Origin: Candidatus Pseudoscillospira falkowii
GTDB taxonomy: Bacteria; Bacillota; Clostridia; Oscillospirales; Oscillospiraceae
Length of the DNA: 64,000 nucleotides
Direction of reading: 5' to 3'
Assembly (NCBI GenBank): GCA_904374485.1
Contig: CAJFFX010000003.1
Span: 1-64,000, forward strand
Shown here: positions 38,085-47,666 of the stretch, piece by piece
How the letters are laid out: each line of letters begins with the position of its first letter
Position numbering within the stretch: the stretch's first letter is position 1
Translations under genes and position numbers: made by a program
Notes under the pieces: generated by a model
The model's input: the letters and a program-made list of their open reading frames with translations, nothing else
Told to the model about the DNA's origin: nothing
Database searches by the model: none

Positions 38085-38122
38085 AAAATTGCGCTTGGCG
38101 AAGATTCGCCAAGCGCAATTTT
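38085..38122. terminator. Bidirectional terminator between convergent genes
   Basis: AAAATTGCGCTTGGCGAA...TTCGCCAAGCGCAATTTT. Confidence 0.8.
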
Positions 38123-41152: not shown

Positions 41153-42412
41153 TCAAATACGGCTGGCGCCGCTGTCCGCCGGGCTCCCCGCCGCGGCAAG
41201 GGCCCGCGCATCGCGCGCCCGCCGTTTTCTGCCGGTCCGCCCGGCGCACACCGGGCAGCCGCTCTTCTGGCTGCCGGTGCGGGAATAGACGGCAGCTTTC
41301 CACACATGCCCCTCGGCGCACTGCCACCAAACCTTCTTGCGGCTCCCGGCGGTGACCATCTCCGGCGTCAGGTTTCCGTTGAGGGTCGGGTGCCATTGGG
41401 CGGCAACAGCGGGTTCCACCGCGGCCAGATCGTTGAACCCCGGCAGGGCCCGCCGCCCAGCGCAGTAGGGACAGCCGCTGCTATGCTCCGTCCGCGCCGC
41501 CACCACCGCCTGATAGAGGTGGCCTTTCTCACAGGTCCACCATACTTTCCGGTTACTGTAGGGCGACACGGTTTCCGGCGTCAAGCTGCCGTTCTTTTCA
41601 GCGTGCCACTCCCTGGCGATGTCCGGATAGAGCGTTTTCAAATCGTTCTCGCCGGGCAGCACGGTTTTTCCCGCGCACACCGGACAGCCCGCGCCGTTGG
41701 CCGTCCGGGAAAAGACCGCCGCCTGCCATTCATGCCCTTTTTCACAGCGCCACCAGACTTTCCGGTGGCTTCCCGCCGTCACATCCCGGGGCGTCAGGGA
41801 GCCGTTTCGGACGGGATGCCACTGCTTTGCCAAATCGGGGCAGGTGGTCGCCAAATCGTTTTCTTCCCGCACGACGGCGCGGTTGGCGCACACCGGACAG
41901 CCGCAGCCGGCCGTTCTGGCGTTTACCCGGGCCATCCACTCGTGCCCTTTTTCGCACTGCCACCAAACCACCCTGTGACTGCCGGGCACAACATCTCCCG
42001 GCGTAAGGGGCAGATTTTTTGTGGGGTGCCATTCCTTTGCCAGGTCCGGAAACAGCGTCCCCAAATCGGTTTCCCCAGGGGCTGCCTTCTTCCCGACACA
42101 GTAAGGGCAGCGACTCCGCGACGAGGCGCGGGTATGGATATCGCACTGCCACTCGTGCCCCTTTTCACACCGCCACCACACCCGCCGGCTGCTGCCCCGG
42201 CTCACCGTGTCCGGCGTCAGGGGCAGGTTTTTCGTGGGATGCCACTGGCGGAGCAGCTCCTCGCAGTTTGTGCGCAGGCAATACGCACGCAATGACTCTC
42301 TGATATCCTCACCCCCCCGGTTTAAGACAGAATCAACCTTCTGTCCCGGTTTACAGCGAAACGCCGGGTGCGCTCCTGCATCGAATCGCGAAAAGGCGGC
42401 GATAGATCCCAT
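41153..42412 (-). CDS. Protein of five tandem zinc-ribbon repeats (PF14311-like); annotated 5' end lies inside an invertible segment, so the true start is uncertain
   Basis: About 70-aa repeats of WHPTKN..LTP..V..GS.R.VWW.CEKGHEW......R....CP.C.G....PGENDL..L.PD.A.; start could be downstream of the IR (for example TTG before [16 protein letters not shown]). Confidence 0.8.
42326..42348 (+). repeat. Left 23-bp inverted repeat of putative invertible element
   Basis: GACAGAATCAACCTTCTGTCCCG; exact reverse complement at 42604-42626; internal dyad GACAGAA-TCAACC-TTCTGTC. Confidence 0.95.
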
Positions 42413-42441
42413 AAAATATAAAAAGCCGCTCAGAGAGCGGC
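42411..42441 (-). terminator. Intrinsic terminator inside invertible segment, facing the zinc-ribbon gene
   Basis: Minus strand GCCGCTC-TCT-GAGCGGC followed by TTTTTATATTTTAT. Confidence 0.75.
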
Positions 42442-42531
42442 ATAAGGTTCAGCGATTTAAGCGTGACAAGACAGGCCGGCAAACAGTAAATTTGACGGCC
42501 CGGATTTTTGCACCCCGCTGGGCGAAAATAC

Positions 42532-42560
42532 TTGCTTTTCCGCAAAGGCGCTGGTAAAAT
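42532..42560 (+). promoter_or_regulatory. Sigma-A-like promoter inside invertible segment
   Basis: TTGCTT(42532)-N17-TAAAAT(42555), pointing right, away from the zinc-ribbon gene in this orientation. Confidence 0.65.
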
Positions 42561-42603
42561 ATTAAATTACAAATCATTATGTAGCAAAATGGCAGACGCC
42601 ATG

Positions 42604-42626
42604 CGGGACAGAAGGTTGATTCTGTC
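42604..42626 (-). repeat. Right 23-bp inverted repeat of putative invertible element
   Basis: CGGGACAGAAGGTTGATTCTGTC, exact reverse complement of 42326-42348; 13 bp from the recombinase stop. Confidence 0.95.
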
Positions 42627-42639
42627 CTGTTTTTCTTTC

Positions 42640-43485
42640 CTATGACACCAGCCGGAGCATGTCCAGCGTTTTGGCGTGCTCCGCCCCGGTGGAGATGAGG
42701 TAGATGCGCGTGGTCTCAATACTGGAGTGCCCCAGCACGTCGGCCAGCTTCGCCACATCCCGGCAGACCCGATAGAAGGTTCTCGCGAACAGATGCCGCA
42801 GGTTGTGGGGGAAGACCTTGGAGGGCGCGACGCCCGTCTTTTTGCAGAGGGCCTTCATCTCCGCCCAGATTTGTTTCCGTGACAGGCTCATGCCGCCTCG
42901 GGTGAGAAAAATCTCGCCCGAGGCGATTTTCTGCTTTTTGGCGTACTTCAGCAGCTTCTTACAGAGCTTGCCGGGAATGAGAATCGTCCGCACCTTGCCC
43001 TTTAATCGGATCTCCGCCTTACCCATTTCCGCTGCCTCTACGGTGAGATACTGCACCTCGCTGACACGGATACCCGTGCCGCAGATGCTCTCCATGAGCA
43101 GGGCCAGGCGTTCCCTGCCGCTCTCTTTCGCTGCGGCAATCAGACGCTCGTATTCCTCCCGGGTCAGCTCCCGGCTGTCGTCCCGAAAGAGTTTCCTTTG
43201 GAGTTTCAGGTGCTTTACTTTGCAATCAGACCAGCCCATGAAGTCGAAGAACCTATCCAGTGCCGTCAGCTTGCCGTTGACCGTGGAGGGCGAAATCCCG
43301 CCGGCCAGCAGCTGCGCTTTCCAGGCCGCGGCGGCGGCCCTTGTGACCTCGCCTCCATGCACATAGGCGAAGAACTGCCGCACCTGGCACAGATATTTTT
43401 CCCGGGTCGCCGCGCTGCGCTCCTCCGCCTGCAAATAATTCCCGAAGGAAGCCAGCTGTTCCGTTGTTATGATCCTGCGTTCCAT
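42640..43485 (-). CDS. Tyrosine recombinase / site-specific integrase
   Basis: Catalytic signature: TGIRVSEVQYL (R), KGKVRTI (K), HNLRHLFA (HxxR), LGHSSIETTRIYL (H...Y). Confidence 0.95.
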   Translation of the reverse strand: MERRIITTEQLASFGNYLQAEERSAATREKYLCQVRQFFAYVHGGEVTRAAAAAWKAQLLAGGISPSTVNGKLTALDRFFDFMGWSDCKVKHLKLQRKLFRDDSRELTREEYERLIAAAKESGRERLALLMESICGTGIRVSEVQYLTVEAAEMGKAEIRLKGKVRTILIPGKLCKKLLKYAKKQKIASGEIFLTRGGMSLSRKQIWAEMKALCKKTGVAPSKVFPHNLRHLFARTFYRVCRDVAKLADVLGHSSIETTRIYLISTGAEHAKTLDMLRLVS

Positions 43486-45594: not shown

Positions 45595-46014
45595 ATGCGG
45601 AAAAACATATACTGTGCGCTCACAGCGCTGGGCGCCATACTGTTTGCAGCCGGCCTGGTTCTTGCTTTTCTGCCTCAAGCTTACTGGGAAGCTTTTTTTA
45701 TCCGGCCGGATCTGGCGCCTTTCGGCATTGGCTTTCTGGGCGTAATGCTGCTGCTCAACGGATATACCGAGCTGTGCTATAAAAAAACGCGCCAGGAAAT
45801 GATCGAAGAAAATGACGAGCGCAATACTGCCATTCGCCACAGCGCCATGGCCGCTGCCTTTGAAGCCATGAATCTGCTGCTGGGGCTGGCCCTTGTGACG
45901 CTGGCATTACTGGGCTATCTGCATCACGTGGCCTTTTTCACGCTGATTGCGTGTTATCTTCTGGCAAATCTGGTCTATCTGATTCGGCGCCAACAGCTGC
46001 GTCGGCAACAATAA
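45595..46014 (+). CDS. Multi-TM hypothetical membrane protein (DUF2178-like)
   Basis: MRKNIYCALTALGAILFAAGLVLAF...MIEENDERNTAIRHSAMAAAFEAM; RBS AGGAGG. Confidence 0.7.
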   Translation: MRKNIYCALTALGAILFAAGLVLAFLPQAYWEAFFIRPDLAPFGIGFLGVMLLLNGYTELCYKKTRQEMIEENDERNTAIRHSAMAAAFEAMNLLLGLALVTLALLGYLHHVAFFTLIACYLLANLVYLIRRQQLRRQQ

Positions 46015-46034
46015 ATAAAAGGAGGCATACCCCC

Positions 46035-47666
46035 ATGAGGACTATTCGCCGCCTCTGCCGGCGCTTTCTCTCATTCATTCTGAGCCTGCTGCTGTCATGC
46101 TCCCTCATCGTGCCCGCCTCCGCCGACATCAGCTTCCGCGACGTGCCCGCGTCCCACTGGGCCTACAGCGCCATCCGGGAAATGCAGAACGCCGGCCTGG
46201 TCAACGGCATGGGCGGCGGCCGGTTCGAACCGAACGGGACCGTGTCCCGAGCCCAGTTCCTGACCATGGCCGTGCGCCTGACGGAGCAGATGCTCGGCCA
46301 CTCCGTCACGCCGGAGAGCAGCGGCGGCTACTGGGCCGCCCCCTATTACGACGCCGCGGTGAACCTGGGGCTTCTGGGCGGCGGCAGCGGCGCTGTCGCG
46401 CTGCCGGGCGCTTCCGGTGAGCAGGCCTGGCTGGACGCGCCCATCACCCGCTATGAAATGGCCGTCATCTCCAACAACGTCCTCGCCGGCGCGAGCAATT
46501 ACGAATACGACGCCTCCGGCGTCACCAGCGCCGTCATGCCCGACTACGGCTCCCTGCCCGCCCAGTACAAAGACGCTGTGTGCCGGATGTACAGCCTCGG
46601 CATCCTCACCGGCCAGACCGGCGGCTATTTCAACGGCGACGGCACCCTCACCCGGGCGGAAAGCTGCGTGGTGCTGTCCCGTCTGAAAAAGCAGTACGGC
46701 GTCCAGCTCCGCCCCGGCATGGACGGCACGCTGGAGATCCACTTCATCGACGTGGGCCAGGCCGACGCGGCCCTGGTGCTCTGCGGCGGCGAAGCCATGC
46801 TCATCGACGGCGGCAATGTGGCGGATTCCGACCTGATCTACGCCTATCTCAAGCAGGAGGGCGTGACGGAGCTGAAATACATGGTGGGCACCCACGCCCA
46901 CGAGGACCACATGGGCGGCCTGCCCGGCGCGCTGCACTATGCCCAGGTAGACACCGCCTTCTGCTCCGTTACCGAGAACGACTCCAAGTTCTTCCAGAAC
47001 GTCGTTTCGGGCCTCGCCGCCCAGGGCAAGACCCTGACCGTGCCGGAGACCGGCAGCACCTACCGCCTGGGCTCCGCCACGTTCCAGTTCGTCGGCCCCG
47101 TCACCCTCAGCGACGACGCCAACAACTGCTCTCTGGTGCTGCGCCTCACCTACGGCGACACCGCCTTCCTCTTCACCGGCGACGCTGAGCGGGAGGAAGA
47201 GCAGGAGATCCTGGAGGCCGGATACGACCTTTCCTGCACTGTGCTGAAAGTGGGCCACCACGGCAGCGACACCTCTACCTCCTACCCCTTCCTGCGCGCC
47301 GCCGCGCCGGAATACGCCGTGATCTCCGTGGGCGCGGAAAATTCCTACGGCCACCCCGGCGACGCGGCCCTCTCCCGCCTGCGCGACGCCGACGTGACGC
47401 TGTACCGCACGGACCTGCAGGGCACGATCGTCTGCCAAAGCGACGGCAAACACGTGACCTTCGCCCCGGCCCGGAATCCCGACGTCCAGACAAATCCCAC
47501 CGAGGACCGGGACACCGTGGGGGCCTATATCGGAAACGTCAACTCCATGGTTTTCCACCGCACCTCTTGCTCCGGCCTGCCGCTGGAAAAGAACCGGATC
47601 TATTTCGAAGACCGGGCCAAAGCTGTGGAAGCGGGGTACACCCCCTGCGGCCGGTGCAGCCCGTAA
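46035..47666 (+). CDS. Secreted SLH-domain protein fused to ComEC-type metallo-beta-lactamase fold and small C-terminal Cys motif
   Basis: Signal plus SLH repeats; LEIHFIDVGQADAALVLCGGEAMLIDGGN, GTHAHEDHMGGLPGAL, LFTGDAEREEEQEIL, LKVGHHGSDTSTS; C-terminus VNSMVFHRTSCSGLPLEKNRIYFEDRAKAVEAGYTPCGRC. Confidence 0.88.
   Translation: MRTIRRLCRRFLSFILSLLLSCSLIVPASADISFRDVPASHWAYSAIREMQNAGLVNGMGGGRFEPNGTVSRAQFLTMAVRLTEQMLGHSVTPESSGGYWAAPYYDAAVNLGLLGGGSGAVALPGASGEQAWLDAPITRYEMAVISNNVLAGASNYEYDASGVTSAVMPDYGSLPAQYKDAVCRMYSLGILTGQTGGYFNGDGTLTRAESCVVLSRLKKQYGVQLRPGMDGTLEIHFIDVGQADAALVLCGGEAMLIDGGNVADSDLIYAYLKQEGVTELKYMVGTHAHEDHMGGLPGALHYAQVDTAFCSVTENDSKFFQNVVSGLAAQGKTLTVPETGSTYRLGSATFQFVGPVTLSDDANNCSLVLRLTYGDTAFLFTGDAEREEEQEILEAGYDLSCTVLKVGHHGSDTSTSYPFLRAAAPEYAVISVGAENSYGHPGDAALSRLRDADVTLYRTDLQGTIVCQSDGKHVTFAPARNPDVQTNPTEDRDTVGAYIGNVNSMVFHRTSCSGLPLEKNRIYFEDRAKAVEAGYTPCGRCSP

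Follow-up and report, generated by a model that had tools for sequence, protein, structure and literature searches.

A gene for a repeat protein beside an apparent DNA switch raises the question of what is being switched, and whether the repeat protein is itself the product that the switch controls. The initial annotation of the window (the whole stretch of 64,000 nucleotides of Candidatus Pseudoscillospira falkowii DNA that was analysed) took five tandem zinc-ribbon repeats as the apparent output and suggested a nucleic-acid-binding protein that might act in defence, phage interaction or DNA handling. We consider it very likely that the locus has the architecture of a phase-variable surface operon, with the gene for the repeat protein in first position (Table 1).

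Table 1. Features of the window locus and of one serine-recombinase locus (L044)
Feature	Position	Strand	Remarks
Hairpin just past the surface gene stop	38085..38122	.	18 bp, perfect
Large secreted surface protein, 980 aa	38167..41109	-	signal peptide, BspA-type LRR_5, Ig-like, three SLH
DUF4379 (PF14311) five-repeat protein, 383 aa	41153..42304	-	first gene of the putative operon
Five PF14311 domains	42089-42256, 41879-42043, 41666-41833, 41453-41620, 41237-41404	-	Pfam profile
Shine-Dalgarno-like GGGGGGGTGAGG and probable non-ATG start ATC (42304-42302)	42302..42320	-	homologue alignment
Inverted repeat arm adjoining the DUF4379 gene	42326..42348	.	23 nt
Putative invertible segment, 255 bp	42349..42603	.	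between the arms; from layout and orientations in relatives
Intrinsic terminator-like hairpin and T run; as assembled, directed at the DUF4379 gene	42425..42441	-	
Promoter-like TTGCTT-17-TAAAAT, directed away from the DUF4379 gene	42532..42560	+	consensus promoter
Hairpin from inverted repeat arm, and T run	42603..42630	+	
Inverted repeat arm adjoining the recombinase	42604..42626	.	23 nt, 100% match to the other arm
Tyrosine recombinase, 281 aa, likely switch enzyme	42640..43485	-	PF00589 E 1.4e-24, PF02899
Serine-recombinase switch with DUF4379 and surface gene	L044:3063-4043		

The repeat protein and the putative operon that it heads

That the protein is built of five tandem repeats was confirmed with the PF14311 (DUF4379) profile, a search that the initial annotation itself had proposed: the whole protein was matched with E 8e-106 and 346.6 bits, against a curated cut-off of 24.5, in five stretches, with single-domain matches (E 2.5e-19 to 4.7e-24) far above chance. 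The suggested family was confirmed, although Pfam classes the PF14311 domain as a treble clef and not as a zinc ribbon. The motifs had been described a little loosely: the CPxC pair described for each repeat is present in all five, whereas WHPTKN is exact in two of the five (variants WHPVRN, WHAEKN and WHPTLN) and CEKGHEW in three (variants CEKGHLY and CAEGHVW). When homologues were aligned, the metal ligands C/H/C/C (C-x3-H ... C-P-x-C) were found in every repeat, and structure prediction with AlphaFold2, likewise proposed at the outset and carried out with an alignment of 16 homologues, returned five units of a beta hairpin and a helix with a mean pLDDT of 93. We infer that the protein carries five treble-clef zinc fingers, which are predicted to bind zinc. 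The claim that there is no other obvious domain agrees with the Pfam search, in which only the PF14311 repeats and weak or overlapping matches to other families were found; nuclease domains (EDxHD/Vsr, HNH, GIY-YIG) and a NusG-like domain were absent from the Pfam matches. The protein is basic (pI 9.4), and the available genome, which is 86% complete, contains no other PF14311 gene.

The most likely start of the DUF4379 coding sequence is an ATC codon, judging from the alignment, in which homologues have ATG (21), GTG (5) or TTG (4) at this position. The ATG at 42412 falls within the invertible segment, directly after the terminator. A group of loci with serine recombinases, described below, also has ATC at the conserved start position with a good Shine-Dalgarno sequence before it, and in one of them, L044, an in-frame TGA lies a short way upstream, so that translation there must begin at ATC or at a rarer start downstream. 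Apparent ATC (or ATT) starts behind a Shine-Dalgarno sequence were seen in the window, in L044, L189, L190 and L195, and in L185, and such starts may hold the DUF4379 protein at a low level.

Between the DUF4379 stop (41153) and the ATG of the surface gene (41109) there are 43 bp, which include a good ribosome site, and the two genes are presumably co-transcribed as a two-gene operon, closed by the hairpin past the surface gene as a probable bidirectional terminator. The view of the zinc-finger protein as the sole output was rejected, because it heads an operon in which a large surface protein gene comes second. Elsewhere in the window, the translation of an ORF at 45951-47666 resembles, by eye, a fusion of an SLH-type region with a metallo-beta-lactamase-like domain.

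Orientation of the putative invertible segment

The presence of a switch next to the repeat gene, as initially proposed, is supported by an intact recombinase, in which the catalytic set R-K-H-R-H-Y is complete, by perfect 23-bp repeats, and by a promoter and a terminator between them. At up to 3 mismatches, the repeat has just these two copies genome-wide. Each arm is an imperfect palindrome, GACAGAA-TCAACC-TTCTGTC, with a 6-nt asymmetric centre; an imperfect palindrome with an asymmetric centre is expected of the core site of a tyrosine recombinase. The DNA segment beside the DUF4379 gene therefore probably flips to turn the operon on and off. Since the promoter points away from the DUF4379 gene and the terminator faces it, the operon appears to be OFF as assembled, ON and OFF states being called throughout from consensus promoters. 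The hairpin formed by the arm next to the recombinase gene could block antisense transcription into that gene in the OFF state. The fold of the OFF leader RNA as a whole was no more stable than that of shuffled sequences (z -1.2); the terminator hairpin itself is still predicted.

Near-identical relatives hold both orientations of the segment. For instance, the 255-bp segment of L074 is inverted relative to those of L073 and L075, with approximately 95% identity over the whole segment and the same flanking order. Cassettes without DUF4379 behave likewise, as L141 is inverted relative to L159, L162 and L173 (76-81% identity). The window segment is also inverted relative to that of L007, but with only 76% identity over 109 bp. 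In the window's own strain, the segment is predicted to invert. State calls gave 17 ON, 45 OFF and 5 unclear segments. The best promoter lies at the same relative place in 92% of the segments, compared with 26% in shuffles, and its score exceeds the cut-off in 65% of segments as opposed to 6% of shuffles. Furthermore, a repeat pair starts between -10 and +65 bp of the stop codon for 51 of the 59 related recombinases with enough flanking sequence, but for only 6 of 350 other ORFs.

Recurrence of the cassette in Oscillospiraceae

The search for homologues covered 301 genomes of the family, together with genome contigs; many of these genomes are metagenome bins, whose contigs often stop near switch loci. 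The order recombinase, inverted repeats, DUF4379 was found in more than 25 distinct Oscillospiraceae loci, and the next gene, where the contig permits, usually encodes a large secreted protein, of the SLH, BspA-type LRR, fibronectin III, beta-helix, VWA/tip-pilin, InlB B-repeat or type IV pilin-like type. Exceptions are L037/L206, where a 156-aa gene and a dead recombinase come first, L022, with a 283-aa membrane protein, and L051, where the same strand continues without such a surface gene. When 81 DUF4379 proteins were placed in a tree, they fell on two sides of a supported split (99/88), with 34 proteins on one side and, on the other, the 47 that include the window protein. A recombinase switch is present at 32 of the 43 loci of the latter clade with enough flank, two of which (L073 and L184) were counted for their inverted repeat only, as the stretch covered contains no recombinase; eleven members show no recombinase. 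Among the other 34 proteins, a recombinase is adjacent in 0 of 28 with enough flank. Consistent occurrence of homologues without a recombinase or inverted repeats, which the initial annotation had named as evidence against its proposal, is thus not what was found within the window's clade. Pseudogenised copies also occur: at L177, DUF4379 is reduced to a remnant next to an intact recombinase and surface gene, and at L023 its reading frame is interrupted by a stop codon. A viral origin of the window's version of DUF4379 was rejected, as just two viral matches to it were found, both distant.

Several cassettes have unusual layouts. At L184:1-1983 (the same locus as L007), two divergent DUF4379 genes, the left of which runs off the contig, surround one invertible segment with arms at 558-576 and 800-818; its single promoter could serve either gene, as an either/or switch. 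L203 and L025 (G148:C26) have a third copy of the repeat, giving nested inverted pairs 218 and 282 nt apart, which allows more than one inversion product. Genome G148 has at least five DUF4379 cassettes, four of which read OFF and one unclear, with none clearly ON in the assembly.

Across 23 cassettes, the DUF4379 proteins were alike in 253 of 253 pairs (mean identity 53%) and the recombinases in all pairs (mean 55%), while the following proteins, available for 15, were alike in only 2 of 105 pairs. DUF4379 and recombinase distances were correlated (Mantel r 0.69, 0 of 2000 permutations as high), a value that still includes the shared ancestry of the hosts. The conservation of DUF4379 beside changing surface proteins indicates that it is part of the switch module and not cargo, and its job would then be tied to the switched state rather than to a particular surface protein.

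The recombinase class itself appears to be exchangeable. A small serine recombinase is found at L044/L188, L189, L190 and L195, where 10-bp repeats, AAAAAAGTAC, enclose approximately 100 bp, and the segments of L044 and L190 are inverted relative to each other at 97% identity. The L044 enzyme has an NCBIfam Mpi-like match (E 4.6e-14) that is below the family cut-off. L191 also has a serine recombinase upstream, the 10-bp repeats being established for the other serine loci only. Because the serine-switched DUF4379 proteins sit among tyrosine-switched relatives in the tree, the recombinase class was exchanged while DUF4379 and the surface gene stayed.

The wider family of the tyrosine recombinase was found in 113 of 401 genomes. 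In the 44 sister cassettes in which the first gene could be seen, sampled by similarity to the window's recombinase, this gene encodes a secreted protein (19), a recombinase-like protein (11), DUF4379 (6) or another protein (8). The 19 cassettes that go directly to a secreted protein have neither DUF4379 nor a dead recombinase, and therefore the switch in itself does not require a factor of this kind. The recombinase-like proteins in the slot had lost catalytic residues in 14 of 14 examined, most of them retaining motifs such as NPRCLRKLY, and they are followed by surface protein, pilin or exopolysaccharide genes. Cassettes with a dead recombinase first include L125, L128, L129, L132, L137, L139, L140, L151, L161 and L182, among others. 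Two unrelated proteins, DUF4379 and the dead recombinase, both of which probably bind nucleic acid, thus fill the same slot.

Role of the DUF4379 protein and relation to known systems

In a PHROG search, the PF14311 relatives were endonuclease-linked phage families, and structures of relatives have been solved only for mitoribosome proteins and assembly factors of trypanosomatids. These relatives, together with the basic charge, favour nucleic-acid binding, so that the initial suggestion to this effect stands as probable. Taken as a whole, the best explanation, to which we incline a little, is an ON/OFF cassette with DUF4379 as its ON-state regulator. The tyrosine recombinase would flip the 255 bp that the 23-bp repeats enclose; with this segment in one orientation, its promoter would drive the DUF4379 gene and then the SLH/LRR surface protein gene, and in the other, assembled orientation, the promoter would aim away and the terminator would face the genes. 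The DUF4379 protein would thus be made only in the ON state, and would regulate its own operon or competing surface operons by binding nucleic acid. For the narrower claim that the first gene encodes a nucleic-acid-binding regulator present only in the ON state, we regard the chances as even.

Alternatively, DUF4379 might feed back on the switch by binding the repeats or the segment and biasing or locking inversion, much as FimE or a recombination directionality factor would. A dead recombinase paralogue, which would be well placed for the same sites, occupies the same slot in sister cassettes (14 of 14), and DUF4379 and the recombinase co-diverge; however, DUF4379 is retained under serine recombinases with unrelated sites, and is thus not tied to one recombinase or site, and many cassettes have no DUF4379-type gene, which makes this reading unlikely. 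A factor specific to the tyrosine recombinase is weakened by the same serine loci. It seems still more doubtful that DUF4379 works in cis on the long surface gene, as an anti-terminator or elongation helper that binds RNA. The mitoribosomal relatives, the length of the cargo genes, often more than 3 kb, and the precedent of UpxY at the same place (PMC7315117) would fit such a role, but the gaps between DUF4379 and cargo are mostly short, which would leave little space for a leader with a terminator, and secreted-protein genes without DUF4379 are found in 19 of the 44 sister cassettes.

Two further roles are, in our judgment, highly improbable. Phase-variable defence genes are known elsewhere, and PF14311 repeats occur in phage endonuclease families, so that DUF4379 could itself be an effector of defence or phage interaction, as had been suggested initially, with switching as a way to limit its cost. 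However, the PADLOC, Pfam and PHROG searches yielded no effector: Pfam gave no nuclease or other effector domain, the only PADLOC match had 19 bits over 30 residues and was not convincing, and the switched partners are almost throughout surface structures, namely adhesin, S-layer, pilin and exopolysaccharide genes, and a defence role was rejected. Very little also speaks for a passenger with no present function, i.e. a formerly mobile DNA-binding gene caught in the cassette. The pseudogenised copies in L177 and L023 and the relatives in mobile-element endonucleases (PMC12350094) are what such a history would leave, but mean identity above 50% across many genera and persistence through a recombinase swap suggest purifying selection, and all metal ligands are kept. 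A TALE-like modular recognition code was rejected as the main idea, because each repeat is conserved according to its place in the array, with the last two nearly the same in most homologues.

The ON-state regulator that we prefer can be compared with several known systems. The fim switch of E. coli, with FimB and FimE, has an adjacent tyrosine recombinase, an invertible promoter and a surface structure as output, and in these respects the window locus is similar; it differs in having no second active recombinase, the slot being taken by DUF4379, or in sister cassettes by the dead paralogue. Similarly, in the CwpV/RecV system of C. difficile, a segment of approximately 200 bp is inverted ahead of a large cell-wall protein, with a terminator in the OFF state (PMC2784873). 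Recombinase-driven inversion before a large surface gene and an OFF-state terminator are thus shared with the window, but the CwpV promoter is outside the segment, whereas the promoter-like site of the window locus is inside, and this locus has its recombinase close by and a zinc-finger gene at the head of the operon. DUF4379 holds the position of UpxY/UpxZ, the conserved regulators whose genes start Bacteroides capsule operons, which carry differing cargo, number several per genome and in some cases have invertible promoters (PMC7315117). In contrast, UpxY is NusG-like and DUF4379 is an unrelated treble-clef array with a putative regulatory function. Tandem modules of approximately 60 aa in phage homing endonucleases, distantly related to DUF4379 and thought to bind DNA (PMC12350094), precede an EDxHD/Vsr-like nuclease domain, which the window protein lacks.

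For Clostridia, read-level flipping has been reported for inverton group 139, with invertase group 35, a neighbouring tyrosine recombinase (PMC11892184). In the two group-139 examples whose coordinates are printed, the arms measure 14 and 26 bp and the intervals 227 and 205 bp, one member of the group depends on surface attachment, and cell-surface genes are enriched near invertons generally. The window locus resembles this group in having a tyrosine recombinase by short inverted repeats of similar dimensions, a likeness of layout. Zinc is not mentioned in the main text of that paper, and our literature search found DUF4379 papers, none of which concerned phase variation, and none on inactive recombinase regulators or on Oscillospiraceae invertons with DUF4379.

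Tentatively, a large family of Oscillospiraceae switch cassettes may exist in which a dedicated DNA- or RNA-binding factor encoded by the first gene, DUF4379 or a dead recombinase, responds to the ON state, either by controlling inversion or by silencing competing surface operons, and which works with tyrosine or serine recombinases independently of the surface protein. A domain of unknown function would thereby gain a testable role, and the invertible surface operons of a major gut family would have a conserved, exchangeable third component besides the recombinase and the cargo. The use of one slot by either a zinc-finger array or a dead recombinase, and the presence of DUF4379 under recombinases of two unrelated classes, suggest a common regulatory need, which may be, for example, the expression of one surface protein at a time.
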